Positions 4,981 through 26,977 of a stretch of 39,258 nt of DNA are shown in pieces; positions within the stretch are counted from its first letter, which is position 1, and every line of letters starts with the position of its first letter. The stretch lies in the IMG/VR virus record IMGVR_UViG_3300028920_000149, positions 1 to 39,258 of that record, one strand, 5' to 3'. Position numbers and translations under genes: made by a program. A model generated the notes under the pieces. The model saw nothing but the letters and a program-made list of their open reading frames with translations. It was not told the DNA's origin and searched no databases. This DNA is from a virus.

Positions 4981-5288
4981 TCGCCCTCCCCGTCAGATTT
5001 GGCCGCACGGTAAAACGCAGGAGCCGTGGCCTCCTCGTATACGGCCCACGCAGGAGCCGTGGCCTCCTCGTATACGGCCCACGCAGGAGCCTCGGCCTCC
5101 ATGTATGCGGCCCTCGCAGGAGCGGACAGGATGTGTCCTACCGCCCAGTTCAGGTCAAGGCCAAGTTCGACCGCTCTGCGGCACGCCTTCAGCGTCACGC
5201 GGCAGCCTTGAGGCCATTCCTTCTCAAATATCTCCACTTGCTCCTTGCACGCCTTGAGCTTGCGCAGCTTCTTTGCTGTTATCTTCAT
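4977..5288 (-). CDS. Repeat-containing cassette protein, 103 aa, SDGE tail
   Basis: The N-terminal half (about residues 1-60) reads LRKLKACKEQVEIFEKEW...GLDLNWAVGHIL, a pattern seen in small phage proteins of unknown function. The C-terminal half consists of three 11-residue repeats of APAWAVYEEAT type encoded by tandem 33-bp units. The protein ends AKSDGEGE, encoded by the conserved element that also supplies the ribosome site for the next gene. Higher GC than the phage core suggests transfer or recent cassette exchange. Confidence 0.65.
   Translation of the reverse strand: MKITAKKLRKLKACKEQVEIFEKEWPQGCRVTLKACRRAVELGLDLNWAVGHILSAPARAAYMEAEAPAWAVYEEATAPAWAVYEEATAPAFYRAAKSDGEGE
4985..5003 (-). 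repeat. SDGE element, copy A
   Basis: The plus-strand sequence CCTCCCCGTCAGATTTGGC is exact in copies A, B and C. On the coding strand it encodes A-K-S-D-G-E at the end of one gene and provides GGGGAGG as the ribosome site of the next, starting at 4980. Confidence 0.9.
5017..5115 (-). repeat. Three tandem 33-bp repeats
   Basis: Units 5017-5049 and 5050-5082 are identical; 5083-5115 differs at a few positions. The 33-bp length preserves the reading frame, giving 11-residue repeats. Such units can expand or contract by slippage without a frameshift. Confidence 0.9.
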
Positions 5289-5289
5289 C

Positions 5290-5748
5290 CTATTCCTCCC
5301 CGTCAGATTTGGCAGCTTGAATTGCTCTATGCGCCTCTCCCAATCGGGCTGCTACAACTTGCCAGCGAGTACCCTCGGGCATCTCGGCGTTTGCCTTTGT
5401 GTCCAGTATCGCTTTGTCGGCCTTCTCCAACGCCTCCTCCAGCTCCTTGATGCGCTCCCGCAGTGCGTCCTGTTCGCCCTGCGCCAACTTGACCGCAGTG
5501 TATAGCCCGTCATTTTGCTCCCGCAGTGCGTCCTCGATGGGCCGGGTGCGGCCATTCCAGTGTTCAATCAGCATCTTTTCTTTGTCTAAGCCGTATTCTG
5601 CCGTTTCCTCAAACGGGCAATCATCTTCGTACCAGCCCTCGTCTTGTTCATCACCGTCTGCGTGCATAACGTGGACATGTTGCATAACCTTGTTACGATA
5701 TAGGGCTACCTTGCCCCCACAAAACGGACACGGTTTCAGGTCACTCAT
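5290..5748 (-). CDS. Lar-like zinc ribbon fused to a coiled coil, 152 aa, SDGE tail
   Basis: The N terminus MSDLKPCPFCGGKVAL, with a later C and IEHWNGR near residue 62, matches the Lar restriction-alleviation zinc-ribbon family (LKPCPFCGG...AIEAWNRR). These proteins are linked to reducing type I restriction, though many phage copies are untested. From about residue 75 to 115 a coiled coil (ALRERIKELEEALEKADKAI) follows. The protein ends AAKSDGEE. The coiled-coil DNA is shared with two other cassette genes. Restriction alleviation is a family-level inference only. Confidence 0.65.
   Translation of the reverse strand: MSDLKPCPFCGGKVALYRNKVMQHVHVMHADGDEQDEGWYEDDCPFEETAEYGLDKEKMLIEHWNGRTRPIEDALREQNDGLYTAVKLAQGEQDALRERIKELEEALEKADKAILDTKANAEMPEGTRWQVVAARLGEAHRAIQAAKSDGEE
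5295..5313 (-). repeat. SDGE element, copy B
   Basis: Exact CCTCCCCGTCAGATTTGGC on the plus strand. It ends the Lar-like gene and supplies the ribosome site for the start at 5288. Confidence 0.9.
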
Positions 5749-6061
5749 CTTTTGCCTCCCCGTCAGATTTGGCTACATTCCGTATCACTGTAAGCAAATC
5801 GGTTAGACCGTCTGAGCAGGACATTTTTTTGTATGTGCGAATGATAACATCCAAGTCTTTGCACCGCTCCTCCAGCTCCTTGATGCGCTCTACCTGCTCA
5901 TCTGATATTGCCCTCGCATCAAGTGCAAGCCGCAATGCCTTCGTGTAGTCTGCCTTCAGCCGCTCGTTCTCGTCGCTCAACAGCTCCACGCAGTTACAGT
6001 TTCCGTCCGTGTACTTGACCGCGTTGCACTCATTCAAATGCAGTTTGTCGTCTATCACCAT
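5741..6061 (-). CDS. Coiled-coil cassette protein, 106 aa, SDGE tail
   Basis: A short Cys-containing N terminus (NECNAVKYTDGNCNC) precedes a long coiled coil (about residues 25-75), including VERIKELEERCKDLD, whose DNA matches the coiled-coil part of the neighbouring Lar-like gene. It ends VAKSDGEAKDE. It starts at ATG 6061 behind SDGE copy D and overlaps the next gene by eight bases. No enzymatic motif is visible. Confidence 0.65.
   Translation of the reverse strand: MVIDDKLHLNECNAVKYTDGNCNCVELLSDENERLKADYTKALRLALDARAISDEQVERIKELEERCKDLDVIIRTYKKMSCSDGLTDLLTVIRNVAKSDGEAKDE
5755..5773 (-). repeat. SDGE element, copy C
   Basis: Exact CCTCCCCGTCAGATTTGGC on the plus strand, at the end of the 106-residue gene and just before the start at 5748. 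Confidence 0.9.
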
Positions 6062-6420
6062 CGCTCTTCCTCCCCGTCAGATTTGAGTCCATCAAGGAAT
6101 GCATGTCCGGCATCCACCGCAAACTTCTGGTTGCTGTTAGGATGCTGAATAACATATAGCAAACACTTCACAGCCCCCACCCCCACAGCCTTGTCACGTT
6201 GCTCCTGTTCCACCGCACAGCGTTCACCTTTCAACTGCTCTTTTAGCTCCTCGATCTCTTCTTTCAGTTTCTTGTTCTCTTTGTCCCTCCAGCCTATTTC
6301 CATAGCAAGGTACAGAGGAGTACCGGTATTCTCAGCAAACTTGGCAGCAGTAATCTTTCCCTCACACCACTTCGGGTACTCTGTGTTCCAGCATACTTCT
6401 TCATTCGATTTACTCATCAT
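6055..6420 (-). CDS. Coiled-coil cassette protein, about 121 aa, SDGE tail
   Basis: I choose ATG 6420 (or 6417), which overlaps the stop of the membrane peptide upstream, over the longer frame to 6453. The N-terminal part (MSKSNEEVCWNTEYPKWCEG) could bind a partner or metal; a charged coiled coil follows (KLKEEIEELKEQLKGE). The C terminus AFLDGLKSDGEEERW contains the IFLDGL-like segment shared with the gene at 4540 and the SDGE element. First gene of the GC-richer cassette run. Confidence 0.65.
   Translation of the reverse strand: MMSKSNEEVCWNTEYPKWCEGKITAAKFAENTGTPLYLAMEIGWRDKENKKLKEEIEELKEQLKGERCAVEQEQRDKAVGVGAVKCLLYVIQHPNSNQKFAVDAGHAFLDGLKSDGEEERW
6069..6087 (-). repeat. SDGE element, copy D
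   Basis: CCTCCCCGTCAGATTTGAG on the plus strand, differing from copies A-C in the last two bases. It provides the ribosome site for the start at 6061. Confidence 0.85.
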
Positions 6421-6577
6421 CTTTCTCTGACTTAAGGTAATTGAATATAACAAAATACAGTATCAAGTCCAACATGCCGTATTCGTAGACAAAGTTCTCA
6501 GACAGTGCTGAAAGTATACCAAGCAGTACTACAAAAAACAGTGTTATGCCTATCGCTTGGTAGTGTGTCTTTTTCAA
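6410..6577 (-). CDS. Small membrane protein with two hydrophobic segments, 55 aa
   Basis: TTG start at 6577 with GGAGAG six bases upstream, ending in TAA at 6410 overlapping the next start. Residues about 10-25 (AIGITLFFVVLLGIL) and 38-49 (LDLILYFVIFNYL) are hydrophobic, so it probably spans the membrane twice. It is the first gene behind the promoter at 6606-6635. A holin-like role is possible from size alone but there is no lysis gene beside it. Confidence 0.6.
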   Translation of the reverse strand: MKKTHYQAIGITLFFVVLLGILSALSENFVYEYGMLDLILYFVIFNYLKSEKDDE

Positions 6578-6605
6578 GATTCTCTCCTTAGTGTTGCCTA
6601 CACAT

Positions 6606-6635
6606 GTTATAACACCTGTAGTGCCTGTTTGTCAA
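6606..6635 (-). promoter_or_regulatory. Sigma70-type promoter for the cassette run
   Basis: Perfect TTGACA (6635-6630), then 18 nt, then TATAAC (6611-6606); a 17-nt spacing to TTATAA is also possible. It lies in the only sizeable gap here, after the glycosyltransferase stop, and would start transcription about 20 nt before the TTG at 6577. This suggests the SDGE cassette genes form a separate transcription unit. Confidence 0.8.
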
Positions 6636-6751
6636 CCTGTTTTTAAATGTTTTTCTGGTATGTGTACGACCACTATAGCCCCGCTACAGACATTCTCGTA
6701 TAAACTGAGTAACCTTACCCCTACCGGTAACTTTAGGGCCGTAAAAGTGGA
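6636..6751. other. Intergenic region downstream of the glycosyltransferase
   Basis: No gene is seen. It contains an 8-bp palindrome TACCGGTA (6722-6729) within an imperfect inverted repeat, which may form a weak hairpin. No run of Ts follows, so a terminator is not supported. Confidence 0.5.
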
Positions 6752-7621
6752 CTACAGTGCTGCTACCCCACTACTGCGCTTTACCACAACAGGTTCTCTC
6801 CGTACAGGTGGTACTACCCTCTTTGCCCTTTTTATCTTTTCAGCACGTATGTTTCTTTTTATAGCCTTTTTTTGCTTGTTGGTCTCTCTCTTTATCTTCC
6901 TTCTATCCCCTTCATGCAGCTTGCGCCACTTGAAACGTAGCTCATCGAAACACCACCGCTGCTTACGCCTTTTCGAGTTTGACATATTTGTTGGTCTGCG
7001 GGACCGGTACCAATACAATGCCCGTGGAATATATACACACTCACACCCGCTCTCTGCCATACAGATAGCAAGGTTGTAATCTACTGCATATTCGTAATGT
7101 AATCTCAACCCCCGTGACTGCAGATACCACGACCTTTTAAACGTCCTGAAGTGCTGTGCCTTCCACCAACCACTGTCCATAAAGGCTGAATACAGATCAG
7201 TATATTGCTCTACAGGACCTCCCCGTAGCTTACCGGTATCCATCATTACAAGTGACCAAGTAAACCCAACCTTTTTACTTCTTGCCTGCTCAGCCACTGA
7301 AGAGGTTATTGCATCCTCATATATCTGATCGTCTGAATCAAGTACACCTATTATATCTGCACTTGCCTGTGCTATCCCATAATTAGTTACAAACTGCAGC
7401 CCATGTTTTGGTGATTCTATTATACGTATCTTGTGACCTTGGTTTACTGAATTCTTCAGCAACGTTGCCTCATAATACGTCTCTCCATCCGATTCCGGGT
7501 CCATCACTACAAGCAGTTCCCAGTTCCTGTAGTTCTGGTTGCATACGCTAAGCATTGCACTAGCTATGTAAGGTGCGGTATTGTATGCTGGCATCAAAAC
7601 CGTAAAAGGGGGTTCTTTCAA
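6752..7621 (-). CDS. Family 2 glycosyltransferase, 289 aa
   Basis: TTG start at 7621 with AAAGGA upstream. The N-terminal part (FTVLMPAYNTAPYIASAMLS) is the nucleotide-sugar binding start of a GT-A fold, and VLDSDD near residue 92 is the DxD metal-binding motif. YWYRSRRPTNMS near residue 203 ends the catalytic domain. The last 65 residues are strongly basic (KRETNKQKKAIKRN...) and could bind nucleic acid or an acidic partner. Substrate is unknown; phage GT2 enzymes modify DNA bases, capsid or tail proteins, or host surface sugars. One of three glycosyltransferases here. Confidence 0.85.
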   Translation of the reverse strand: MKEPPFTVLMPAYNTAPYIASAMLSVCNQNYRNWELLVVMDPESDGETYYEATLLKNSVNQGHKIRIIESPKHGLQFVTNYGIAQASADIIGVLDSDDQIYEDAITSSVAEQARSKKVGFTWSLVMMDTGKLRGGPVEQYTDLYSAFMDSGWWKAQHFRTFKRSWYLQSRGLRLHYEYAVDYNLAICMAESGCECVYIPRALYWYRSRRPTNMSNSKRRKQRWCFDELRFKWRKLHEGDRRKIKRETNKQKKAIKRNIRAEKIKRAKRVVPPVRREPVVVKRSSGVAAL

Positions 7622-7633
7622 ATATAGTCCTTT

Positions 7634-7846
7634 CTAGTCAACGTACAGGGCCAACACCTGCCCCCGCATCTCTGAATCAAGTACATCAGCATAGGTAATT
7701 GAATACTGCCTGCCATTTTTATTTATGACTAGTACTTCTGCCTCCGGTGAAAGAGTAGACATCTCTGCGTATAGTTGTCTTACATTCAACCCTACCCTTG
7801 CCTCAGACTGCATACGCTCATTTATGAGCTTGTCTATATCAGCCAT
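7634..7846 (-). CDS. LID-motif small protein, 70 aa
   Basis: The N terminus MADIDKLINERMQSE is the short amphipathic helix (pattern D-x-L-I-[DEN]-x-[KR]-[LM]) repeated in the 1011-residue protein and other small genes nearby. The rest (LYAEMSTLSPEAEVLVINKN) looks like a small alpha/beta domain. Possible head-packaged or structure-associated protein, by inference only. Confidence 0.65.
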   Translation of the reverse strand: MADIDKLINERMQSEARVGLNVRQLYAEMSTLSPEAEVLVINKNGRQYSITYADVLDSEMRGQVLALYVD

Positions 7847-7933
7847 CTAAGCATCTCCGTTTCTACCAAGTAAAATTACCCAAATACCTAGGATTATTAC
7901 TATCAACCCTATTATTACAAACTCACTCGCCAC
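7847..7933 (-). CDS. Single-pass membrane micropeptide, 28 aa
   Basis: A GTG at 7933, inside the last codons of the upstream gene, opens a frame to TAG 7847. It encodes a short polar start, then a hydrophobic segment (FVIIGLIVIILGIWVILLG) and RNGDA. Its position in an otherwise empty gap and its clean membrane-helix composition favour translation, but no clear ribosome site is seen. Confidence 0.4.
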   Translation of the reverse strand: MASEFVIIGLIVIILGIWVILLGRNGDA

Positions 7934-8186
7934 CGCCAAGTACCTTCTTTGCAATACCGGTAGATGCATCACTCAGAGCCTTCATAAATTCATTGCTCTT
8001 GGGATCATCAGATAATGCCAAACCCTTCAGCAACTGTACTGCCTTCATCTGAGCGTCATTATCTGACCCCCAATTAGTCTTACCCAAATCACCGATGAGC
8101 TTTTTTACGTCTGGCTTTTCTTCCTCGATAACCTCAGCCAAAAAACTATCAACCGCTTCCTTCACCTTGTTAGTCTTATTACCCAT
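7923..8186 (-). CDS. Hypothetical helical protein, 87 aa
   Basis: The start at ATG 8186 follows GGGAGATAATA, so the in-frame extension to 8204 is rejected. The N terminus MGNKTNKVKEAVDSFLAEV is a lysine/glutamate-rich amphipathic helix, a looser version of the LID motif. The remainder contains a helical ALSDDPKSNEFMKALSDAS and a glycine-rich end (LGGGE). No family recognised. Confidence 0.6.
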   Translation of the reverse strand: MGNKTNKVKEAVDSFLAEVIEEEKPDVKKLIGDLGKTNWGSDNDAQMKAVQLLKGLALSDDPKSNEFMKALSDASTGIAKKVLGGGE

Positions 8187-8204
8187 TATTATCTCCCATA
8201 TCAC

Positions 8205-8459
8205 TTAATAATCTTTACCCGCATCGTATATTTCCGGCATAGTATAATCTATAGCCACAAAATTATGCACAAAGCTTGCCCACTCTGAAGACTCCCTACT
8301 TAGATCAAATATTTGCTCAGCTACATACCATACTGCCATTCTCTTACTACTTGCCCTAACAAGATATTCTTTTCCCCTAGCCAATACTTTAAAAACCCTA
8401 CCTCTAGATGCTTCACATTTTAGCTTATCTTCTATTAACTTATCTGCCGCAGTATCCAT
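8205..8459 (-). CDS. LID-motif small protein, 84 aa
   Basis: ATG 8459 overlaps the TGA of the zinc-ribbon gene upstream. The N terminus MDTAADKLIEDKLKCE is a clear LID-motif helix, followed by a small domain starting GRVFKVLARGKEYLVRASS. The conserved N terminus with a variable body suggests a sorting or attachment tag on different small proteins. Confidence 0.65.
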   Translation of the reverse strand: MDTAADKLIEDKLKCEASRGRVFKVLARGKEYLVRASSKRMAVWYVAEQIFDLSRESSEWASFVHNFVAIDYTMPEIYDAGKDY

Positions 8460-8629
8460 CACACTTGCCCCCTATTAGCTAACTGTCTTGGCATCTTGCC
8501 ACATGAAACGCAGGGTACCGCCTTGCAGTATGGACACGTTGCCTGCTTGTGGGTCAAGTTACTCCTGAAAATCTTATCACACTTGTAACAAAGGTACCTG
8601 TACTGTCCCTTGCCCCGCTCCTTAACCAT
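8459..8629 (-). CDS. Zinc-ribbon protein, 56 aa
   Basis: ATG 8629 to TGA 8459. CYKC, CPYC and CVSCG pairs with an intervening LTHKQATC form a rubredoxin-like zinc ribbon. It resembles the 45-residue protein at 15253-15390 in the RYL-x-C-Y-x-C-D-K-x-F beginning, indicating paralogues. It sits in an overlapping chain between a membrane protein and a LID-motif gene. Function unknown. Confidence 0.65.
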   Translation of the reverse strand: MVKERGKGQYRYLCYKCDKIFRSNLTHKQATCPYCKAVPCVSCGKMPRQLANRGQV

Positions 8630-8773
8630 TTATGTATCCTCCGAACGGCCCCCGTGGCCCTTCTCAGATACGTCTATCTTTTCGGTATTGTGCACCCGCT
8701 TCGATCTCAGCAGGGTATACACAACTAGGGTATAGATGAAACAGACTATCAGGGCTACTATGAACTTAAACAT
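8630..8773 (-). CDS. Single-pass membrane protein, 47 aa
   Basis: ATG 8773 overlaps the previous TGA (TGATG). Residues about 3-22 (KFIVALIVCFIYTLVVYTLL) form a membrane helix followed by RSKR, then a polar tail of about 22 residues. The positive-inside rule puts the tail in the cytoplasm. No recognisable holin or spanin features beyond size. Confidence 0.6.
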   Translation of the reverse strand: MFKFIVALIVCFIYTLVVYTLLRSKRVHNTEKIDVSEKGHGGRSEDT

Positions 8774-9027
8774 CAGTCCTGCATCTGCCCTTCATCTACT
8801 TCCGAACCATCTATCGCATCACTCAAATCCTGCCACGTACGGCGAGAGTATCCTTTATTTTTCATAATGTCTTGCAACTGTATCAGTACTGTAGAGGCAC
8901 CGAATCGTAACACTAAAGCCTCAAGCCTACCGCTCATTGCAGTATCCCACGGTTCGAAAAACACCCCGCCCTCTTCTATGCTCTCTTTATTTAACTTCTC
9001 ATCTATCATCTTCTCTACATCTACCAT
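8773..9027 (-). CDS. LID-motif small protein, 84 aa
   Basis: The N terminus MVDVEKMIDEKLNKESIEEGG follows the LID pattern closely. The body contains ALVLRFGASTVLIQLQDIM and an acidic C terminus. It is flanked by overlapping genes and has no cysteine motif. Function unknown; see the finding on the LID family. Confidence 0.65.
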   Translation of the reverse strand: MVDVEKMIDEKLNKESIEEGGVFFEPWDTAMSGRLEALVLRFGASTVLIQLQDIMKNKGYSRRTWQDLSDAIDGSEVDEGQMQD

Positions 9028-9336
9028 TTAGTTCTCCTCCTTTACCCCAACTACCAACATACACCAATGTCCGGGCATTGACATAATCTGCCTAAACGTT
9101 ATCATGTTACCGAACGTATCACAGCACCGCATCTTTGCCTCGTTTATATCGTTTATATTCATCTTTGGATAATGCCACCTGTACAGAATAATGGGGCACT
9201 TATATCTTTTTGCCCAAACAACAGCCCATGTTTTTGATTTTGCATATATCTTCGTGTACCCTTCCTTGTAAGCCACCATTCTGCATATAGGGCAATTCTC
9301 TAGATTAAATTTCTCCACTACGTTTCTTTTCGTCAA
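9028..9336 (-). CDS. Hypothetical protein with CPIC motif, 102 aa
   Basis: The reading frame extends back to TTG 9336, but GTG 9318 is also possible since the upstream gene stops at 9305. CPICRMVAY near residue 15, YRWHYPKM near residue 53, two cysteines at RCCD and GHWC near the end may bind a metal. The layout is slightly like HIT-type proteins, but the histidine triad is absent, so I do not assign it. Confidence 0.6.
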   Translation of the reverse strand: MTKRNVVEKFNLENCPICRMVAYKEGYTKIYAKSKTWAVVWAKRYKCPIILYRWHYPKMNINDINEAKMRCCDTFGNMITFRQIMSMPGHWCMLVVGVKEEN

Positions 9337-10847: not shown

Positions 10848-10926
10848 TGGTCTAGGCGGGTGGATTCGAACCACCGATCCCGTGCTTCCAAAACACGTGA
10901 GGACAACCAAACTCCTCTACGCCTAG
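10848..10926 (-). tRNA. tRNA-Pro (anticodon TGG)
   Basis: Acceptor CTAGGCG (10926-10920) pairs with CGCCTAG near the 3' end. D-arm GAGG...CCTC, anticodon arm CGTGT-TTTGGAA-GCACG with TGG in the loop, T-arm GGTGG-TTCGAAT-CCACC, discriminator A and an encoded CCA. All stems fold. UGG can read most or all Pro codons by wobble. It lies between two coding genes on the same strand and so is probably cut from a polycistronic transcript. Confidence 0.95.
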
Positions 10927-10945: not shown

Positions 10946-11824
10946 TCATCCACGAACTACTGCCCTATTTATATTACCGTTATGTGCCCTGCGCTCTTTG
11001 AATATAGCCCTGAAGGCCCTCTCCTTCTGTCTATCATCCCGTGACATCAACTTGCCGCCTGACTGCCCCTTCGCTGGATGATAGACATATGCTCCACCAT
11101 CAAATGCAACCTGCGGTGGTGTTGGGTGACCCCATGTAATGGCTACTTTCTTCCAAGGCTCCCTCTTTGTATTCTCCGGGGTATATGAACCTATATTCTT
11201 TACCCCCAACCCAGTACTGTATGTCAACATACTTATCCACAAATCGTCACTTATTGGTGTACCCAACACGTCCAGATAAGGCTCCTTGAAATACCCTTTC
11301 TGCCTAAATGTCCGTATGCCCTCCTTTGTCAACACCATCATCGCACCCAACACACTCCTACCTTTTTCATACCCCTCAGGTAGAGTAATGTGCTTTGTTA
11401 TCTTGGACCAATACTTGTTTATCACCCGCACCCAATTATCGTGCGGATGCTGCATTGCACCCATAAGACCTACACCCTTATCTATCTCACTGAGCAGCAT
11501 CGCATCTGCACCCTGCCTGATAAAAAGAGTATCATAGTCTATAACGCAATAATGGTCAAACCTTTTCTCCCCGTTACCCCATTCGAGTGCACCGACAAAC
11601 AGCCTATAAAGACCTTTACCCCACCCACATCTACGGGGAGAAATATATACGCCTACGTCAGGATGTGATCTACTAATCAACCCCGCTATATTATTCTCAT
11701 CCTTCAAATCTATTGCCACCATGATATAGGGATTCGTAGTACTGTAGTATTTCACCGAATCTATAGTATCTATTACAGATTCCGCATAGTCATGGCAACG
11801 AATACAAATACAAAGTTTGTCCAT
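10946..11824 (-). CDS. GT-A-fold glycosyltransferase-like protein, 292 aa
   Basis: The N terminus (KLCICIRCHDYAESVIDTID) resembles a GT2 nucleotide-sugar binding strand-helix. FDHYCVIDYDTLFI near residue 95 carries a D-x-D metal-binding motif. Later segments SDDLWISML and YVYHPAKGQ fit the acceptor side of the fold. It differs clearly from the enzymes at 6752 and 20959. The C-terminal 40 residues are basic. Its start overlaps the previous stop (TAATG). The substrate cannot be told. Confidence 0.7.
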   Translation of the reverse strand: MDKLCICIRCHDYAESVIDTIDSVKYYSTTNPYIMVAIDLKDENNIAGLISRSHPDVGVYISPRRCGWGKGLYRLFVGALEWGNGEKRFDHYCVIDYDTLFIRQGADAMLLSEIDKGVGLMGAMQHPHDNWVRVINKYWSKITKHITLPEGYEKGRSVLGAMMVLTKEGIRTFRQKGYFKEPYLDVLGTPISDDLWISMLTYSTGLGVKNIGSYTPENTKREPWKKVAITWGHPTPPQVAFDGGAYVYHPAKGQSGGKLMSRDDRQKERAFRAIFKERRAHNGNINRAVVRG

Positions 11825-12078
11825 TACATGTTATCAATCAGATCAGCACCTGCGTATTCCATTATATGGTTCGTCCTACCCCCACACTTATCACACCTAG
11901 CAGCTAAAACAGCACTACTACCCCGCAACAATACATCGTACACTCTCTGTGACCTATGCACCCCACAATACCCGCAGGCTATTTCCGGAATAGTAAGCCC
12001 AATAACAGTCACCCTACCCTCTGTCTTGACAGTTTTAAGTTTAGTACTTATAAGGTACTCTGCTTGCTTCTCAGACAC
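11824..12078 (-). CDS. LID-motif protein with zinc ribbon, 84 aa
   Basis: GTG start at 12078 with GAGGAGGG upstream. N terminus MSEKQAEYLISTKLKTVKTEG is a LID-type helix. CGYC near residue 36 and CDKCGG near residue 62 form a zinc ribbon. It is the first gene behind the promoter at 12097-12126. It combines two themes of this region: the LID tag and a small zinc module. Confidence 0.7.
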   Translation of the reverse strand: MSEKQAEYLISTKLKTVKTEGRVTVIGLTIPEIACGYCGVHRSQRVYDVLLRGSSAVLAARCDKCGGRTNHIMEYAGADLIDNM

Positions 12079-12154: not shown

Positions 12155-12168
12155 GGCATCTATATGCC
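12155..12168 (-). terminator. Small hairpin after the 1011-residue gene, weak terminator candidate
   Basis: GGCAT-ATAG-ATGCC forms a 5-bp stem directly after the stop codon, followed by AAATATATT rather than a clean T run. Its place between a gene end and the next promoter is right for a terminator, but the structure is weak. Confidence 0.3.
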
Positions 12169-15100
12169 TACCTACCCAACTCCCTAGCAGTCTTGGCCTT
12201 TTTCTGCCAGAAGGGAGTGTAGGCAAACGGAACGTCCAGCCACATCTCCTTGTCTATCTGTGACCGGAACGGCTTACTCTTAAGGTTGAAATTTTTCAGT
12301 ATCTTCCGGGCCTCAGGGGTATCCTTCACGTACAAGTCAGATTCATGGCTATCTACCTGTATGCCAGCCTTTACCAATGCACTGACTACATCATCGTCCC
12401 GCTCGGACAGCTTCTTCTCAATAAGCCCCTCCGCAGACTCTTTCTTTTTCTTACCTTTTACTTTTTTCATACCCCGCATAAACTTATCCTCTACATCCTT
12501 ATTGCCTGCATGACCTGCCCTCTTTGCCATCTTCTTCGCCGCAGTACGCATATGTGGAGTTTCGTCTGCTTCCATCTTATCTTTTATCAAACTCTCTGCA
12601 TCCGCTTTCATAGATTCCTTTCTTACCTTACGGGCACCCTTCACCAACTTCTTCATCTGCTTGGGGCTTACCGTAACAGCAACACCGTCACCCTCCAGAC
12701 TACGGTATATGCACCCCATTTTCGAGTCAGGATAAAACTTATCCTCAAGAACAGAAAGTACTGCCCACTGAGGCACCTCGCATTCTTCCTGCTCCCCAAA
12801 CCCAACCGCATCAAGACAGTACTCCCCTGAACGGTAATTTATGTACATTGTCAGATAATCATCCATGTGCATACGTATATCGTCAAGTATAGCAGAACAC
12901 TCATCGTTACTTAGCTCTGAGAACCCACCTATATCATCCCCTTTGATTTCCCCATAGTTCACCATACGCTGCACTAAAGATTTAAGCTCCTCTTTAACAG
13001 AATAATCATTCAACAACATATAAACATAAGGTTCCTTAAAATCATCGGTCTCATAATACTCAATAAGCCCATTAACATATTCCTCTGTTCTTCTCTCATA
13101 CTCTCTAACTATATCAGCGTATGCTTTATAGTTAGACCCTACGTACTCTTCTATCAAATTCAACATACGCTCACGGATACCGTCACCCCAATGCACCTCT
13201 TCAAAACACCGCCGCGTATACTCTTTTATGAGGTCTTCCCAACGCCTATCTTTTAGGATATCCCGCTTCTTCAACCCCAAAAAAGTAAGGTCTTTCCATT
13301 TCTTATCAAGCTCATAGTTTATCTCTGTTTCAAGATCAGGGTATCTCACTTCCAATAATTTTCTTTCTATCTCCATTGCAACTACAGCCTTCGACTCTTT
13401 AGACGTCTTTTGCCTGTTGTACCTGTTCAAGGCTAACTTTGATACAAACTTTATCTTTGCATCTACTAATTGCTTCAATTGTTCTTTAGTAAGCCCGTCC
13501 AACAGGTCAGTCAGTTTCTTATATGCAGGCTTACTGGGATCAACCCTGTTCAGTTTACCGTAGTCATTCCGTAACTTATCTAGCATATCTTTTGTAAATG
13601 CCCCCTTTGGAGAGGTAAGAGCTATCTCATTAAACCCATACCCTGCTTCAATCTTCTTCTCAACCTTTGCATCTATTAGGCTATCTGCAGATTCCTTTTC
13701 CATCTTGAACTTCTTAATGGACTCTTTAAGAAATACATCCACACTACTATCAGTCTGATCCATATCGTTTCCACCGAATCTTTCCATATTCTGTTTCATA
13801 TAGTTATAGACTCTTTTACGGTCATATGAATCATCCAATATATCTGCTGATACGTAGAACGTATCACCTATACTCTTAACGCTAACATCTACATTAGGAA
13901 ATTTCTTACTAACCATATCTGCAAATGCTCGAGCTCTATCCTGCTGAGAGGATTCTATAATCTCATTATCTATCAAACTCTCTGCCTTGGTTGATTCGGC
14001 AGGTATACACTTGCCCTGCTCCTGTGACCACACCTCACCCTGCTTACATACCTGTTTGGTGTTAGGGTCATTTGAGAACCTACCTGACTTACCGGACGGG
14101 TCTACAGCCCATCTACCCCCACGCATAAACGGCCTACCTTGACCCTTACCAAGACCACTACCGTCCCTACGACCACCACCGGGACCCATACCACGGCCTA
14201 CACCGCCCGGAGGACCAGTACCATCACCACCTGCTTCTTTAATCTTACTATCTATAAGCTCATCTGCTTTCATTTTGGTCTCCATACTTTCTCTTATCTT
14301 ATAGTCAACTGCTGATCTTGCCAGTGCAACCATAGCATCTGTACGCAGCCTACGCCAATTATTGTAATCGGGATAAACTGTGTATCCCCTTACTTCAGCA
14401 CTAACCCCTATACCAACAAGTATATCCCTTACCTCATTTGCATCTGGAATGCTATTCACTTCTATCTGCGGACCAACACCTTCTGTACTAGTTGACGCAG
14501 GTGCTGCTGCACTCATATCTTTCCTGATTATACTGCCCTGTTTTGCCCCCGGTAGCTTCTTTGAACTTCTCAACGTACCCTTCCCACAATTAGGGCACTT
14601 TTTACCATCACATCCGCTCTCCTGTACTGCATACCCGCAAAAGTCACAATCACAGGTATCAACAGACTCATACACTTTCTTTATTCGATAAAGTTCCATG
14701 TCTTTAGTTACCTTAAACCCACCCTGAAGCTCAGTAGACGCCTGAACTTTACTTCCCTCAAACCCATACTTAGCACCATAAGCAGTGACTACAACATAGG
14801 TATCTTTCTGGTAATTATGTGCAGTCTTAGCCGCAGCCAATACAACCGCCTCAAGATCACTGGCAGATACCCTAGACTTAACTCCCTTAAACCCAGTATC
14901 CGCAAATCGTTTCAGCTTATAGGTCTCACTACTCATCAATTCATAACTAAGCCTGCTTTCCTTTACAGACTCATGTATAAGTATAGCATCCCCATCCCAA
15001 CCCTTACGGTCTATCTGTTTCATCATATACTCAAAGTCTGCATTCTGCAGGACATAATATTCTTCCCCACGCAGATCATACGTCTCTGGATTTTTAAACT

Positions 15101-15203
15101 CCCGCACAAACCATTTTTCTATAGCGGGGTCATCTATCTGAAAGGCAACAGTATCTCCCCCATATCCGGTCATTTTTTCATCTATAAGCTCATCTGCTTT
15201 CAC
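12168..15203 (-). CDS. 1011-aa modular protein with six LID motifs
   Basis: GTG start at 15203 with GGAGA upstream. A short helix motif occurs at about residues 2-11 (KADELIDEKM), 312 (KADELIDSKI), 407 (AESLIDNEI), 506 (ADSLIDAKV), 869 (AESLIKDKM) and 924 (AEGLIEKKL), usually preceded by a K/E/S-rich run such as KES. The modules between differ. The first includes a CDFC...CPNCGKG zinc ribbon (about 185-205); the second is Gly/Arg-rich low complexity; the fourth contains LTDLLDGLTKEQLKQLVDAK and a long charged helical region; the last two are short and basic. It looks like tagged small proteins fused in a chain. Packaged head protein, scaffold or cleaved polyprotein are all conceivable; no protease or catalytic site is seen. 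Confidence 0.8.
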   Translation of the reverse strand: MKADELIDEKMTGYGGDTVAFQIDDPAIEKWFVREFKNPETYDLRGEEYYVLQNADFEYMMKQIDRKGWDGDAILIHESVKESRLSYELMSSETYKLKRFADTGFKGVKSRVSASDLEAVVLAAAKTAHNYQKDTYVVVTAYGAKYGFEGSKVQASTELQGGFKVTKDMELYRIKKVYESVDTCDCDFCGYAVQESGCDGKKCPNCGKGTLRSSKKLPGAKQGSIIRKDMSAAAPASTSTEGVGPQIEVNSIPDANEVRDILVGIGVSAEVRGYTVYPDYNNWRRLRTDAMVALARSAVDYKIRESMETKMKADELIDSKIKEAGGDGTGPPGGVGRGMGPGGGRRDGSGLGKGQGRPFMRGGRWAVDPSGKSGRFSNDPNTKQVCKQGEVWSQEQGKCIPAESTKAESLIDNEIIESSQQDRARAFADMVSKKFPNVDVSVKSIGDTFYVSADILDDSYDRKRVYNYMKQNMERFGGNDMDQTDSSVDVFLKESIKKFKMEKESADSLIDAKVEKKIEAGYGFNEIALTSPKGAFTKDMLDKLRNDYGKLNRVDPSKPAYKKLTDLLDGLTKEQLKQLVDAKIKFVSKLALNRYNRQKTSKESKAVVAMEIERKLLEVRYPDLETEINYELDKKWKDLTFLGLKKRDILKDRRWEDLIKEYTRRCFEEVHWGDGIRERMLNLIEEYVGSNYKAYADIVREYERRTEEYVNGLIEYYETDDFKEPYVYMLLNDYSVKEELKSLVQRMVNYGEIKGDDIGGFSELSNDECSAILDDIRMHMDDYLTMYINYRSGEYCLDAVGFGEQEECEVPQWAVLSVLEDKFYPDSKMGCIYRSLEGDGVAVTVSPKQMKKLVKGARKVRKESMKADAESLIKDKMEADETPHMRTAAKKMAKRAGHAGNKDVEDKFMRGMKKVKGKKKKESAEGLIEKKLSERDDDVVSALVKAGIQVDSHESDLYVKDTPEARKILKNFNLKSKPFRSQIDKEMWLDVPFAYTPFWQKKAKTARELGR
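14251..14272 (-). repeat. LID-motif DNA repeat, second copy
   Basis: The 22-nt stretch encoding KADELID is identical in the plus-strand sequence to 15181-15202, pointing to recent duplication or conversion between module starts 1 and 2. Confidence 0.85.
15181..15202 (-). repeat. LID-motif DNA repeat, first copy
   Basis: This is the partner of 14251-14272, covering the first codons of the 1011-residue gene. Confidence 0.85.
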
Positions 15204-15252: not shown

Positions 15253-15390
15253 TCACCTAGACCGCTTTAAACAGAAAGGGCATATAGCCCTTTGTGGTGT
15301 CTCTGCGGCTGATTCAAAGTACTTATCACAATTATAGCACTGGTATAAGTACCTCTGCCTTTTTCTACCCACATTAGATACTTGCCTCAT
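15253..15390 (-). CDS. Zinc-ribbon protein, 45 aa
   Basis: ATG 15390 overlaps the preceding TAA (TAATG) and follows GGGAGG. The product starts MRQVSNVGRKRQRYLYQCYNC and has CYNC...CPFC, a minimal zinc ribbon with a basic N terminus. It is a paralogue of the protein at 8459-8629. Function unknown. Confidence 0.65.
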   Translation of the reverse strand: MRQVSNVGRKRQRYLYQCYNCDKYFESAAETPQRAICPFCLKRSR

Positions 15391-15689
15391 TAGTACCTCC
15401 CAAGCACCCTTCTCAAAAGCTTATTTTCTATCAACTGCTCTACTCTATCAACCTTATGCTCCTCATTAAACCTATCTAAAAGGTTCTCATATGCGTCTAT
15501 TAAATCCTTCTCTGTACGATGATGCCCTGACCATGTTTCAGTCTCACCATTGTCGTATATTGCTTGTATGGCCATATCCCGCAGGTTCATGTACAGCCAG
15601 CCCTCCTCGTATCCGGGTGCACCAGTGCCCTTGAACCTAGACCGTTTGTCATAATCCCGACTATAGTTCTTCTTTGGCCTCGCCATCAT
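15390..15689 (-). CDS. Hypothetical protein with C-terminal LID motif, about 99 aa
   Basis: Start placed at ATG 15689 (MMARPKKN) or 15686; a longer frame to 15698 exists. The basic N terminus is followed by a segment with YMNLRDMAIQAIYDNGETE and a C-terminal helix VEQLIENKLLRRVLGRY, the LID pattern at the opposite end from its neighbours. It directly precedes the zinc ribbon and the 1011-residue gene. Confidence 0.65.
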   Translation of the reverse strand: MMARPKKNYSRDYDKRSRFKGTGAPGYEEGWLYMNLRDMAIQAIYDNGETETWSGHHRTEKDLIDAYENLLDRFNEEHKVDRVEQLIENKLLRRVLGRY

Positions 15690-15825
15690 TTCCTCCATCT
15701 AAATATATCTCGACTATCTCAAAGTTATTATGTCTTCTAGGAGTAAACATAATGGAACGTATCCTGCTAATCAAATACTGCATTATCTCTTCCGGAAACG
15801 AATCTACATGTAGGGTAAAATACAT
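15661..15825 (-). CDS. Small hypothetical protein, 54 aa
   Basis: ATG 15825 directly follows the TAG of the MNNFSI paralogue. The product begins MYFTLHVDSFPEEIMQYLIS and ends GGNDGEAKEEL, overlapping the next gene by about 29 bases; GGAGG near its end serves the next start. The coherent amphipathic sequence favours a real gene, but it has no known relative. Confidence 0.45.
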   Translation of the reverse strand: MYFTLHVDSFPEEIMQYLISRIRSIMFTPRRHNNFEIVEIYLDGGNDGEAKEEL

Positions 15826-20958: not shown

Positions 20959-21759
20959 CTACTCTCCCTCCAATATACCCTTACCGTAATTAACTATCAA
21001 CTTATCTCTCAACTCATCTATAACATCACTAGCATTGTCTAAAGTCTCATTGTATATGACCTTACTAGCTTCTGGCTTTTCCCAATTGGGAGAAGTCAAA
21101 GGGTGCCAAAGATGCCTCAGCGTCTGCAACACGTACTTCATCCTGTGACCAAGATACTCAAGTCTTCTAGAGAACTCATCATCTTCAAGACCCCACCCAA
21201 TAAACCCCTCATGCCAACCACCGGCCTTGCAAAATAAAGACCTCTGTATAGTACAGGATAGTTTTGTCCAACCCTCACCCTGCTTCTCTACCTTACCGCT
21301 AACGGTACCTAAATTATAAGCATCTCTCCCAGAAAACACTTTATCGCTATCGTGACTACTCATTCTAAGAAACCTATAAAAATTAGAAAAGGCAAGTGCA
21401 CCGTCACTAATAGCTACATCTAAGGCAACAAAAAAATCTTTAGGTAGCGGTACATCCACATCATGAAACACTAACCAATCGTGCTTTGCAAGTGAAACAC
21501 CAACATTAAACAACCTGCTACGCTCATATGAAGCAAAACTCTTTACGATCTTATATTTACAGGTTGGTGGTATTAGGTGATTATAAAAAGTATTACCGTC
21601 TGGATGAACCATCTCTACTACAATAAGCTCTATAGGTTCCACATCCCCAGACTGCATTACCGTTTTGTAGTGTTTACCTGCCCGTCTATAACTATCCAAA
21701 AAAACCTTGAAGTACTCTACCCTGCTTATACCAAATACAGGTATTATAATAGAGAACAC
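20959..21759 (-). CDS. Family 2/7-type glycosyltransferase, 266 aa
   Basis: GTG start at 21759. FSIIIPVFGISRVEYFKVFL begins a GT-A fold, HDVDVPLPKDFF near residue 98 has the DxD metal site, and FIGWGLEDDEFSRRLEYLGH near residue 186 is the G-W-G-x-E-D-x-[DE] motif typical of galactosyltransferase-like C-terminal domains (Glyco_transf_7C type). It is the clearest catalytic candidate among the three glycosyltransferases. Acceptor unknown: DNA, capsid or tail protein. Confidence 0.8.
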   Translation of the reverse strand: MFSIIIPVFGISRVEYFKVFLDSYRRAGKHYKTVMQSGDVEPIELIVVEMVHPDGNTFYNHLIPPTCKYKIVKSFASYERSRLFNVGVSLAKHDWLVFHDVDVPLPKDFFVALDVAISDGALAFSNFYRFLRMSSHDSDKVFSGRDAYNLGTVSGKVEKQGEGWTKLSCTIQRSLFCKAGGWHEGFIGWGLEDDEFSRRLEYLGHRMKYVLQTLRHLWHPLTSPNWEKPEASKVIYNETLDNASDVIDELRDKLIVNYGKGILEGE

Positions 21760-22012: not shown

Positions 22013-22891
22013 TTACAAAAAATCTGTTATATTCAGGGCTGGTATATCCGTATAAGCCTCGATACTCTCCTTTTTTGACTTACGCCTACGTTTCTTTATT
22101 TTAGCTAAGTCTTTAAGCATCGTCTCTTTTTTTGGTAATTGTTTGTTTCTTTTTTCCCATTTATCATAATCTACATTCTTTATAACAAGCCTGCACCTAC
22201 AATTAGATAAACATATCGAAGACCCGTCTCTGGGCACTACCGGAATAGTCTGTTTGGTAAAAGGAGACTTACTTGCCATATATTTACAGCTATCACAAAT
22301 TTTATTGTCGCCCCTAGTAACCCAAACCAATAACACGTTAGCAGGGGTAGCTAATACCCTAGCAGCATCATAAACAGACCTTACAGTATCTGCATACATG
22401 CGTACCCTACGTTGTGCATTTCTACTACTTAACTTACCTGTTTTAGCATCATCAAGTAGCTTTTTCCAGTACCTAAGCTCTGCATTTATAGCAGTCTTTA
22501 ACCACCGCTTCTCTTCCGATGTGACTATATCCCCCTCTCCAACCATCGCAACCTTAGCCGAATCCATTGCAGCATCAAATACTTTTTTGTAGGTATCGCG
22601 TATAATAAACTCAGACCCCCTTTTCAGTTTTTTAAAAGTTACATCCCCCTCCTTATCTATATACCCATTAACTAAACCCAACAAGTCCTTATACAACCTG
22701 TCTGCCAAACTCTTTTGAAGCTTACTAGCCCGTGACAACCGTTTCTTTTTCCTTACTTGCGCTCTTCTCGGTAACCTACGTAAGGATAACGCAAGCTCTC
22801 TAGCCGTAAGAGGCTGATCGAGTGTACCTAATGCCTTACTCTCCTCTAGCGTAAAGTACTCTGGGGTAAGGTCTTCAATACGAACAATCAT
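22013..22891 (-). CDS. MuF-like minor head protein, 292 aa
   Basis: After a basic helical N terminus, residues about 205-260 read [20 protein letters not shown]...[19 protein letters not shown], the MuF/SPP1 gp7-type minor head signature with paired Cys residues that may bind zinc. The protein acts in head assembly near the portal, which fits its place three genes after the portal. The C terminus is strongly basic ([11 protein letters not shown]) and ends [15 protein letters not shown], faintly like the KES-preceded LID motif. Confidence 0.8.
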
Positions 22892-23043: not shown

Positions 23044-23356
23044 TATCATTCTCCTTAAAGACTTTTGGAAATACAGAACTCCCCCAAAGATGCTTTTTCC
23101 TAGACTCAAACTGGGTAAAAGATATCAAAATCTTACCGTGCGACATCACCTCACCCCCTACAAAATGACTGTGCATTTTTTTAGGTGGCTTAACTTGGGC
23201 TGAAAACTTACCGAAACCATTAAGGGAAACCTCTGTACCGTCTATAGTTTCTGCCTCTATAAGTCCAATAAGTTCCCTTAACACGTCTCTTACGTAGGAA
23301 GACTTCAATCTTGTTTTTTTAGCTATTTGCCTCACTACATCCTTAGTCCTCAACAT
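23033..23356 (-). CDS. HU/IHF-family DNA-binding protein, 107 aa
   Basis: ATG 23356 overlaps the portal gene's TGA (TGATG). [26 protein letters not shown] is the helical dimer half and [19 protein letters not shown]...[14 protein letters not shown] is the saddle with the G-F-G-x-F signature. HU-type proteins bend and compact DNA as dimers. The usual proline-tipped arm is altered. Its place between portal and MuF-like genes suggests a late role such as packaging or internal DNA organisation. Confidence 0.75.
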
Positions 23357-25074
23357 CAATCAATACCTTCTGTTATCTGCTTGTAGGGTTTACTCATATA
23401 TCTATGTATCTCCTCATTAAGACGAAGTACTTCTTCCTTATCCCCCTTCTTAGAGGCCACCACCTTTTCTAACTTCATGGTCTCTATATCACCTTTCCAC
23501 TTACCGATATCCTCAACAACACTATCTTGCAGGTACCCGTTTGAGTATTTGGAATCAGCCACATACTCTATATCTTTTACTATACTTTCTACCCGTTCTT
23601 TTATTTCCTCCACAGATTTCTGCAACCCCGTATTGTTCTCATATTCTTTAGTTAAGTCCCTTTTCATATCTGCAGTAATAGGCTTACTGGCTGCTGTACT
23701 CTCCTCACCATCCTCTTCACTACTAAAAAGGATGTCCAACATTTCATTAGTAAAACCACCAAAAGTAACCAGTAAATACTCAGTCCACTTAGGCCCCTCA
23801 AGACTCAAATCTCTAGACAGTCTAGTAAAAGAATCTATAATCCTCAACCTAGCATCATATAGATCAGCCCTTTGCATTTCATCCAAAAAGCTTATAGGGT
23901 CTCCACAGACCTTAAAAGCATTGTCCTTTTTTCTGGGGTCTATATTATGTAAACACAGCTCGATCTCGCAGGTTGCAACTATTCCCCGCAATGCGGACCT
24001 CTGCAGCTTTTTAATCATCCTAGAGTACTTAACGTCTTGCTGCACAAGACTCTGGTTAGACTCAAACCGAATGCCTGTAGAGAAATCAAGACCTAGGTAC
24101 TCAGGAGGTATTCTACACACAGAACAAAACCTCCGCAGGAAATACTCAAGGTCGTATACATCCTGTACCCTAGAATTAGCACTGACCTCTTCTATCCTGT
24201 CCTCTCTACCCTGTATTACAGGAACTATAACTATACCTGTTGCAGACCCCGGAGCACTAAACTCTTTCTTTAACTGTTGGTTATTTGAATCCACAAAAAT
24301 CTGCTTGTTTATAATGTGCTCCATGCTCTTTATTCGCTCAGATGCCTGTGGAGCAGTCAATCCAGTACAATCTACGTACAAATGTGTCCTATCTGGGTGT
24401 TTAAGTATACGGTATACCGCCGCCGCATCCTCCATCATATTCAATCTGGTAGTCACCCGTATAAGGGGTTCAAGCATGGAGGTTCCGTACTTTCTATCCC
24501 TAGCCTTGCCTATCAGCTTAAAGTGCACAAAATCCCACGGCAACGAATAGGCCTTATCGTTCTCACCATCAAACGAGTACCCCAATAACCTACCCGTATC
24601 TTTATCCATTACCTTATATACCATACCTTGTTTCGGTTCCCAAGAAAATATATGATCTTCATCCAAGATAAGCTCATCAAACTCCTCACCATGCTTAGCA
24701 ACATCTCTTGCTATGGAGTACAGGTAATCTTCCACCATCAACCGCTTCAACAAAGCATCCAATACATTCTTTACCTCAGAATTACTAGTCTCAATCCATA
24801 CCGTAGCGTTTTCCTTCAGGTTAAACTGAGTTGCGTCCTCAGCATACACATCCAAAACAGATGCAACCAAGTCCACATCCATATCATTATACAGCTCCCA
24901 CCGCTCCATTCTGGTGCGGGGCATCATCATCCTCTTAGAAAACCACTCCCCTAATTTATCGTTTCCAACAAAACCACTGAACTTTGAAAGGTTATCTAAA
25001 TCGTGCCCACCTTTCTTTTCGCTATCTTTTGGAGTAGACTTAAATAGACCACCCAACTTTCCAAATATACTCAT
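23356..25074 (-). CDS. Portal protein, T4 gp20-like, 572 aa
   Basis: RWELYNDMDVDLVASVLDVYAEDATQ near residue 58, a conserved region around RDVAKHGEEFDELIL, WDFVHFKLIG near residue 180 and KYGTSMLEPLIRV match T4 gp20-type portal proteins. The C-terminal quarter is acidic and helical. The portal forms the dodecameric DNA channel and binds the terminase. Gene order large terminase, portal, then head genes is the usual late module. It lacks the first methionine-rich extension of T4 gp20 but length is comparable. Confidence 0.88.
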   Translation of the reverse strand: MSIFGKLGGLFKSTPKDSEKKGGHDLDNLSKFSGFVGNDKLGEWFSKRMMMPRTRMERWELYNDMDVDLVASVLDVYAEDATQFNLKENATVWIETSNSEVKNVLDALLKRLMVEDYLYSIARDVAKHGEEFDELILDEDHIFSWEPKQGMVYKVMDKDTGRLLGYSFDGENDKAYSLPWDFVHFKLIGKARDRKYGTSMLEPLIRVTTRLNMMEDAAAVYRILKHPDRTHLYVDCTGLTAPQASERIKSMEHIINKQIFVDSNNQQLKKEFSAPGSATGIVIVPVIQGREDRIEEVSANSRVQDVYDLEYFLRRFCSVCRIPPEYLGLDFSTGIRFESNQSLVQQDVKYSRMIKKLQRSALRGIVATCEIELCLHNIDPRKKDNAFKVCGDPISFLDEMQRADLYDARLRIIDSFTRLSRDLSLEGPKWTEYLLVTFGGFTNEMLDILFSSEEDGEESTAASKPITADMKRDLTKEYENNTGLQKSVEEIKERVESIVKDIEYVADSKYSNGYLQDSVVEDIGKWKGDIETMKLEKVVASKKGDKEEVLRLNEEIHRYMSKPYKQITEGID

Positions 25075-25075
25075 T

Positions 25076-26977
25076 TCAAACTCCTGTTATTTTTGGTATT
25101 GTTATTCCCTCATACAACATTCTATCATTTGTAGCAGCGTGGTAAGCTACACCCGCAAAGGCATCTGACACATCCTTCAACAGATCACCACGCACCACTT
25201 TCTTTTTTTCTCTATCGTGCCTTACAGATATCAACTGACTTATTAGCGGATAGTAGTTATATACTGAACAGCTCTTATTGTCTATAAACGCCTTCGCATG
25301 TAGGTAAGCTTCATCAGTCCTATCAACCGACAAAACATCTATATCTACAGCCTGCTTACCCTGTTTTTTTCTCTTCTTTGTCTCACCAAAATACTGCCTA
25401 AGCCTCTGTATTGAATCCTTAGATTCATACCCATCATAGGAAATTACACCTATAAGAAAGTTATACTGCTTTAGGTGCTTTATAAATTGTCGTATCTTCT
25501 CAAAATCTATTACCCCCTCTTCAGGCGGCTTAATTTCAAGTATCAAATCTATATACAGTTTAGGTAGCATGCTTTTTTCTTTTTCTCTATACACATGCCC
25601 CATACAAAATCCCGCGCTGCACTGACTCTCTGCCAAGTCAACATGTATTATCCTGTAAGCACTACTGCGTACTTTCGGTACATAGCCACTTCCACGTATA
25701 GTAACAAGGTCTTTCAGGTTAAGGTATTCTGTTAACTGTATCCTGTCATCGGTTGATAACGATATTTCCCTCTTAGTAAAAGGATAGGGTCTATCCCCAT
25801 CAACAATATATTTAATGTTCTCTCTACGCCTAATCAAAGGGCTAACGGCAACAGTAGCAACTCCCGCTTCGTCTCTAAGAAAAGTCTCCGGGTCTTCCTT
25901 AGCAGCTTCATAATACTCAATAGGTGCCTCTACTATATGTGCACCCTTTGGTGCTATCTCACCCTCATCAAGTATTTTGCTATCAGTAAATTCGTCTCCT
26001 AGCAAAACATAAAACCTCTTACCTGAATACTGCATGTTAGGCTTAGTAACATCCCAAATAGCCCTAGATACAATCTTCACTCCCGGTTTCCCGTATATCT
26101 CCTCCTTATGCTTCTCAAGCCAAGCAGTCTCAGCACCCTTAGAAGAAATCAATATAACGATTCCCGGTATCTCCCCTCCAGTCCTTTCAAACCTAGACCT
26201 TAAACGTGTTCTAGTTGCTGTATATAATTTCTGAGCCTGCCCCTGATTATAAGCCAACTTCTCAGTACTGTGTGAAGATTTTGCCTCACGCATAAAGTTA
26301 ACCTCATCCATAACTATTGTTAACAGGTCATCCCCCAAAGCAGATAACTCACTCGACCCCTGCATTATTACTATGTTGTTTGGAAATTCCATCGTTTTAG
26401 GTTTAAGTGAGGGAAAGTGCTCTTGAAAATAGGGCGATCCGTCTACTACGTTCCTTAAAGCTACGTACGCCTTATCTGTCCTGTGTACAAAAACACTATA
26501 GATGCCAAACGCAATTCTGGACACAGCACCCATAAGCCCAAAAAACTCTGAGGGGTTACGTAAACAGGATAGCCTATATAACCTATACACCAAACACATT
26601 ACAGCAATTGAGGTTTTCCCCCAACCAATACTGCCTTCACAAATCAACTCCGTTATCTCACTATTTGGGTCCAAAACCTCAAGTAGCAACTCCCTGTTCT
26701 CTGGGTACAAACCACCTGCAAACTTACCTACAAAATAGTCTTCATCTAAAAATTCTTTGGGTCCAACGGGCTCTCTTAAGTAGTCCTGCCTGATCAGCTC
26801 CTTATATAATCTACCAGACTTCGCATCCCCCGTCTCAACGTACTCACTAAGCATTCTCTTAAGAAGACTTTTGGAGTCCCTAGACAGGTTACTAGTACCC
26901 CTCTTTATAACCTTCTCAATTGAAGGTATATCTTTTACTAGTATCTTGTTTCCCTCTCTATCCACTAAATCAACCAC
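25076..26977 (-). CDS. Terminase large subunit, 633 aa
   Basis: GTG start at 26977. Walker A is CEGSIGWGKTS at about residues 113-123; Walker B is LTIVMDEVNF with D224 and E225. The C-terminal half carries a nuclease-like fold beginning RIIHVDLAESQCSAGFCMGH near residue 445, with Asp and Glu placed for metal binding. It drives DNA packaging by ATP hydrolysis and cuts concatemers. It directly precedes the portal gene in transcription and overlaps the probable small subunit gene by eight bases. Confidence 0.9.
   Translation of the reverse strand: MVDLVDREGNKILVKDIPSIEKVIKRGTSNLSRDSKSLLKRMLSEYVETGDAKSGRLYKELIRQDYLREPVGPKEFLDEDYFVGKFAGGLYPENRELLLEVLDPNSEITELICEGSIGWGKTSIAVMCLVYRLYRLSCLRNPSEFFGLMGAVSRIAFGIYSVFVHRTDKAYVALRNVVDGSPYFQEHFPSLKPKTMEFPNNIVIMQGSSELSALGDDLLTIVMDEVNFMREAKSSHSTEKLAYNQGQAQKLYTATRTRLRSRFERTGGEIPGIVILISSKGAETAWLEKHKEEIYGKPGVKIVSRAIWDVTKPNMQYSGKRFYVLLGDEFTDSKILDEGEIAPKGAHIVEAPIEYYEAAKEDPETFLRDEAGVATVAVSPLIRRRENIKYIVDGDRPYPFTKREISLSTDDRIQLTEYLNLKDLVTIRGSGYVPKVRSSAYRIIHVDLAESQCSAGFCMGHVYREKEKSMLPKLYIDLILEIKPPEEGVIDFEKIRQFIKHLKQYNFLIGVISYDGYESKDSIQRLRQYFGETKKRKKQGKQAVDIDVLSVDRTDEAYLHAKAFIDNKSCSVYNYYPLISQLISVRHDREKKKVVRGDLLKDVSDAFAGVAYHAATNDRMLYEGITIPKITGV

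Follow-up and report, generated by a model that had tools for sequence, protein, structure and literature searches.

A repeated tag peptide inside a 1011-residue phage protein suggests a cargo polyprotein

Why should a phage encode as one long polypeptide a series of unrelated modules, most of them headed by the same short motif? The question is raised by a gene in the window analysed here, which is an entire IMG/VR record, a linear fragment of 39,258 bases. A preliminary description of this DNA had placed an open reading frame of 1011 residues at 12168-15203. The frame is borne out: it starts with GTG at position 15203, runs on the minus strand and has no internal stop codon. The phage's own codon bias is present across all modules of the product, P0001, in the coding frame and absent from the other forward frames, and P0001 is therefore a single genuine coding sequence.

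An amphipathic tag of the form [A][DE]xLI[DEK]x[KE][hydrophobic] occurs six times in P0001 (Table 1). The six copies had been claimed before, and their number lies far above that in shuffled P0001, where the mean was 0.03 matches for a loose pattern and 0.0002 for a strict pattern; the copy at residue 869 (...LIKDK...) falls outside the strict one. The tag core, ADxLIDxK, is presumably not the capsid-targeting sequence of T4. The DNA of copies 1 and 2 is identical over 23 nucleotides, one more than had been reported, and copies 3 and 5 have 15 nucleotides in common. These identities could be taken to mean that the repeats are a feature of the DNA, arising from recombination or a mobile repeat, and play no role in the protein. 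We give this almost no credence, since the other pairs have at most 11 nucleotides in common while the peptide is kept by different codons, and every copy is in frame. The differing codons argue for conservation of the peptide itself.

Table 1. Coordinates of P0001, its tags and modules, and other features of the window. Positions refer to the window; ↓ marks a proposed cut.
Feature	Positions	Strand	Residues and sequence	Remarks
Multi-module protein (P0001)	12168..15203	-	1011 aa	ORF and frame check
Tag 1	15171..15197	-	ADELIDEKM, 3-11 (N-terminus)	
Tag 2	14241..14267	-	ADELIDSKI, 313-321	then KE↓A
Tag 3	13959..13985	-	AESLIDNEI, 407-415	AE↓S before, IIE↓S after
Tag 4	13662..13688	-	ADSLIDAKV, 506-514	KE↓S before, KKIE↓A after
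Tag 5	12573..12599	-	AESLIKDKM, 869-877	KE↓S before
Tag 6	12408..12434	-	AEGLIEKKL, 924-932	KE↓S before
Module 1	14292..15170	-	12-304	ends IRE↓S; no database match
Module 2	13995..14240	-	322-403	Gly/Arg-rich; net +6 over 320-403
Module 3	13722..13952	-	418-494	small alpha/beta
Module 4	13395..13646	-	520-603	basic helical
Module 5	12615..13394	-	604-863	long acidic helical; opens with KE↓S
Module 6	12438..12572	-	878-922	45 aa, basic, net +9 over 878-921
Module 7	12171..12401	-	935-1011	undescribed small phage protein family (SDLY..TPE...W.D.PFAY)
Tag of gene 11824-12078	12037..12063	-	AEYLISTKL, 6-14	zinc-finger-like, 84 aa
Tag of gene 8773-9027	8992..9018	-	VEKMIDEKL, 4-12	84 aa; then NKE↓S
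Tag of gene 8205-8462	8421..8447	-	ADKLIEDKL, 6-14	85 aa; then KCE↓A
Tag of gene 7634-7846	7811..7837	-	IDKLINERM, 4-12	70 aa; then QSE↓A
Tag-like segment of upstream gene 15390-15698	15417..15443	-	VEQLIENKL, 86-94 of 102 (C-terminus)	
MuF-like head protein	22013-22891	-		KES near C-terminus at 22064..22072, possible tail-removal site
T4-type portal protein	23356..25074	-		Pfam Portal_T4, E 3e-24
Terminase large subunit	25076..26977	-		context gene

The tag is not confined to P0001. A profile trained on the six P0001 copies alone was applied to all proteins encoded in this DNA, in 11,597 windows. Its top-scoring other sites fall at residues 6, 6, 4 and 4, respectively, of four small genes (8205, 11824, 8773 and 7634), which the preliminary description had not mentioned in this regard, and at the C-terminus of the upstream gene 15390-15698, among others. 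All four small genes lie on the same strand as P0001 and at most 5 kb downstream of it. Few chance sites, such as those in SbcC and in a glycosyltransferase, reach similar scores, and a candidate seventh tag of P0001 (VAMEIERKL, residues 608-616) ranked 214th, was not significant and was rejected. With P0001 included, five proteins of the window carry the tag at their extreme N-terminus (residues 3-6). The tag is thus an N-terminal element of phage-wide use that recurs within one long chain. The small tagged genes had no match in the phages searched. Two Pfam-supported glycosyltransferases (6752-7621 and 20959-21759) are encoded close to tagged genes, as is a product (10946-11824) that is glycosyltransferase-like by eye, without a Pfam match.

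The modules had been called unrelated to each other, and they do differ in composition and in charge, which ranges from -16 to +9; two of them have unrelated relatives outside this phage. In module 4, residues 536-597 share 60% identity with the N-terminus (residues 3-64) of a protein of Rhizobium phage N46 whose gene follows the major capsid gene. Module 7 belongs to a family with members in 50 viral contigs, most of which are free-standing proteins some 70-90 residues long (consensus DHHESDLYV..TP...SQIDG..W.DIPFAY.P.W; loci L017-L066). In none of these 50 relatives is the domain preceded by the tag, and in the alignment the free-standing relatives have a methionine at about the point where the P0001 tag KESAEGLIEKKLSERD ends. 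The family members tested gave no curated Pfam or NCBIfam match. A structure model of module 7, built with 33 aligned relatives, reached a pLDDT of about 80-92 for the domain and left the tag outside the fold, for which the PDB offered no convincing match and viral structures weak matches only. Folding of each module on its own, a check put forward in the preliminary description, is therefore supported for module 7, and the model of the whole of P0001, calculated without an alignment, was uninformative in this respect (mean pLDDT 37). Module 1 consists of an N-terminal domain, a zinc-ribbon-like CxxC..CxxC segment (about residues 183-206) and a C-terminal domain. Apart from modules 4 and 7, no module gave a convincing match or one reaching the curated cut-off in Pfam, NCBIfam or PADLOC: DUF5832 on module 3 (E 0.0018) and a chitin-binding domain on module 2 remained below it. 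For tag 4, a match to the PHROG family phrog_7197 was discarded, as it spans 21 residues and was also obtained in 4 control genomes.

One could still regard the tag as a helix that recurs within a single continuous structural protein, for example of a scaffold or tape-measure-like type. The long helical stretches at residues 604-790 in the low-confidence model of P0001 would be in keeping with this, but a tag that starts separate genes, modules that vary as described, two modules with independent untagged relatives and a module 7 fold that excludes the tag make it highly improbable. The earlier characterisation of P0001 as a chain of fused tagged cargo, by comparison, is well supported by the sequence: the tag heads four separate genes, and the untagged relatives of two modules begin at the module boundary.

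The residues around the tags follow a pattern of their own. The preliminary description had noted a Lys/Glu/Ser run ahead of the motif, which we can specify as [K/R/A]-E-S ahead of all five internal tags. In each of the five, E-S stands 2-8 residues before the tag, where chance would place it at about 12% of positions (~3e-5 for all five), and E[ASG] occurs within 6 residues after eight of ten tags, the C-terminal one being left out, against about 14% per position; the p-values for these flanking sites are post hoc. Counter to the pattern, there is no E[ASG] close to tag 1, and SE↓R comes after tag 6. Among the about 12,100 residues of proteins in the window, [KR]ES occurs 12 times, seven of them in P0001; of the rest, one follows the tag of gene 8773 and another is 19 residues short of the C-terminus of the MuF-like head protein. 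The prohead protease gp21 of T4 cuts after glutamate at L/I-x-E (PMC9026906) and gp245 of SPN3US at A-x-E with serine preferred in the next position (PMC10052503). In the present phage, [LIV]xE is found in or right after 8 of 11 tags, in part as a consequence of the tag sequence itself, and most of the E-A/S/G sites behind tags have no L/I at P3. The sites of glutamate and a small residue that bracket the tags form a plausible prohead-protease pattern; their consensus is not exactly that of T4, and the cleavage site is put forward as a proposal.

We assign a probability of about 0.5 to the reading that P0001 is a phage cargo polyprotein in which the tag of each module is a targeting signal that is excised by the prohead protease. 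About seven small unrelated proteins would then be encoded as one chain, and the tag would act as a lineage-specific signal that brings these modules, together with at least four separate small proteins, into the growing prohead. There, the protease would cut after glutamate on both sides, at xKE↓S before the tag and at xxE↓A/S/G after it. These cuts would remove the tags and free the modules, which would stay inside the head and pass into the next host along with the DNA. The repeats, the N-terminal tags elsewhere, the two independent modules, the Glu-small-residue sites and the T4-type portal are observed; we infer from them head targeting, cleavage and delivery into the host.

The genomic setting can be described as follows. 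The same strand of the window encodes a DNA polymerase, a gp32-like single-strand binding protein, RecA, SbcC/SbcD-like proteins, the terminase, the T4-type portal and the MuF-like head protein. Some of these circumstances speak against the cargo reading: the P0001 gene is several kb away from portal and terminase and is surrounded by non-structural genes, the 39,258 nucleotides yielded no gene for capsid, scaffold or prohead protease, and P0001 itself no peptidase domain. In its favour, the T4-type portal and the gp21 protease share one phyletic pattern in jumbo phages (PMC7824862). The phage also carries its own tmRNA gene at 1508-1857 (Rfam RF00023, 147 bits; tag peptide GKSQYKMAA) and a tRNA-Pro gene at 10848-10926.

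Alternatively, the tag could be a docking helix for one common phage partner, be it the scaffold, a portal-proximal body or another compartment. It would then not be removed, and several copies would bind strongly in a chain that stays intact. A compact, amphipathic tag that heads separate genes too would suit this role, and the copies at residues 506-520 and 925-931 are predicted to be helical in the low-confidence model. Moreover, in DarB of phage P1 the N-terminal 30 residues direct the protein into the head (PMC9024508). However, a docking function leaves the E↓S and E↓A/S/G sites on either side of the tag without explanation, and we consider it unlikely.

The same sites have another possible origin. 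If separate tagged genes had been fused through loss of stop codons, KES would be a leftover of ribosome-binding sites, and P0001 an ordinary multi-domain (polyvalent) protein, or else some of its modules could be made from internal starts. Such a history would agree with the occurrence of the same N-terminal tag on neighbouring genes. An ATG with a Shine-Dalgarno-like sequence precedes tag 2 (GGAGA, ATG at residue 311) and tag 5 (AAGGA, residue 865), these two ATGs rank 4th and 8th among the 64 internal start codons, and the KES codons at tags 4 and 5 are AAGGAATCT. However, three of the five junctions have no start codon adjoining the tag and keep E-S with other codons (GCCGAATCA, AGAGAAAGT), KES is also present, without a start site, after the tag of gene 8773 and in the tail of the MuF-like protein, and the energies of the internal start sites are moderate and only suggestive. 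As a full account of P0001, fusion alone is in our view distinctly unlikely. A fusion origin is nevertheless compatible with the cargo polyprotein and still allows processing.

Several known systems resemble parts of this arrangement, and between them the T4 internal proteins, DarB and polyvalent proteins offer a precedent for every proposed step. The capsid-targeting sequences of the T4 internal proteins IPI, IPII and IPIII (PMC9026906) are likewise short N-terminal amphipathic peptides on unrelated small proteins with glutamate at the proposed cut, and the present phage has a T4-type portal. In T4, a ten-residue propeptide is cut at L/I-x-E, whereas the core ADxLIDxK of this phage is present in six copies inside one chain. 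Given the T4-type portal and the Glu-Ser/Glu-Ala sites around the tags, the analogy with a T4-type capsid-targeting sequence and protease is plausible. In SPN3US and phiKZ, the proteases gp245 and gp175 also cleave after glutamate, prefer serine next and make several cuts per protein (PMC10052503). However, those cuts strip propeptides off single head proteins, and the published account mentions no chain of tagged modules. DarB of P1 is a large cargo protein taken into the head by an N-terminal signal (PMC9024508), as proposed for P0001, but that signal is present once and has no consensus among the Dar proteins, whereas the P0001 tag is found six times. Polyvalent proteins also combine several unrelated domains in one phage polypeptide; they are predicted to be packaged and injected, have recognisable enzymatic domains and have been proposed to be processed by a zincin peptidase (Iyer et al. 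2017; PMC5512222). Unlike in these, we found in P0001 no zincin peptidase, ART, methylase, ArdC or other known domain, and instead a repeated tag stands before most of its modules and on separate genes too.

Parallels in architecture come from two other phages. Eggerthella phage LE2-3 encodes two uncharacterised multi-module proteins, gp73 and gp74, whose genes lie between those for the portal and the major capsid protein, and the domain of module 7 of P0001 also forms the end of gp73. In gp74 (949 aa; 6221-9067 of locus L014), eight KTA linkers stand between the modules, compared with two in 29 nearby proteins, one in gp71 and one in gp76. The KTA linker is unrelated in sequence to the P0001 tag. 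In Rhizobium phage N46, the head-region protein related to module 4, QXV73823 (7995-8684 of locus L002), contains L[ST]PLKALMVE twice, at a spacing of about 70 residues, with no further match among the open reading frames of that genome. These cases suggest, as far as sequences can tell, that multi-module head-region proteins with repeated linkers may have arisen more than once. It is conceivable, though we hold it tentatively, that some phages package the cargo of their heads as genuine polyproteins in which every module has its own peptide for targeting and excision, that modules move between single-gene and chain form, and that gp74 of LE2-3 and QXV73823 of N46 are independent inventions of the same kind. 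What is new in the present phage is the combination: a phage-wide N-terminal tag that is also repeated within one chain, ahead of its modules. Should the cargo polyprotein reading be correct, the tag would offer a sequence-level means to list head cargo, including small proteins without recognisable homology. The same reading would supply directly testable cut sites and would join the ideas of capsid targeting in T4 and of polyvalent proteins. A natural way to load several cargo proteins in equal amounts would be suggested, and the module 7 family, with members in at least 50 viral contigs, would be a candidate early-infection factor. Apart from these parallels, two intein-like insertions were noted by eye, one in the portal of a viral contig (L004 12013-15084) and one in gp71 of LE2-3, which is annotated as a tRNA synthetase (L014 271-3384).

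The searches run in 2.9 million viral contigs and 85,000 genomes turned up no relative. With the whole of P0001 as query, tblastn against 50,697 phage records returned two partial module matches only, and searches of viral and bacterial collections returned no relative. Scans with the portal, the polymerase and module 4 were equally negative. Terminase relatives reach no more than about 35% identity, and those that were searched whole contained no match. Exact DNA patterns in the shape of the tag, which cover some of its forms, gave isolated chance matches and no multi-tag locus in viral contigs and GTDB genomes. A second repeat in the window, of 16 nucleotides (CAAATCTGACGGGGAG on the coding strand), ends six genes at their 3' side (4986-5001, 5296-5311, 5756-5771, 6070-6085, 31943-31958 and 32133-32148), with 0.01 copies expected by chance. 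It encodes the C-terminal peptide KSDGE in five of these genes and ISDGE in the sixth, and it contains a Shine-Dalgarno-like GGGGAG immediately ahead of the next gene.
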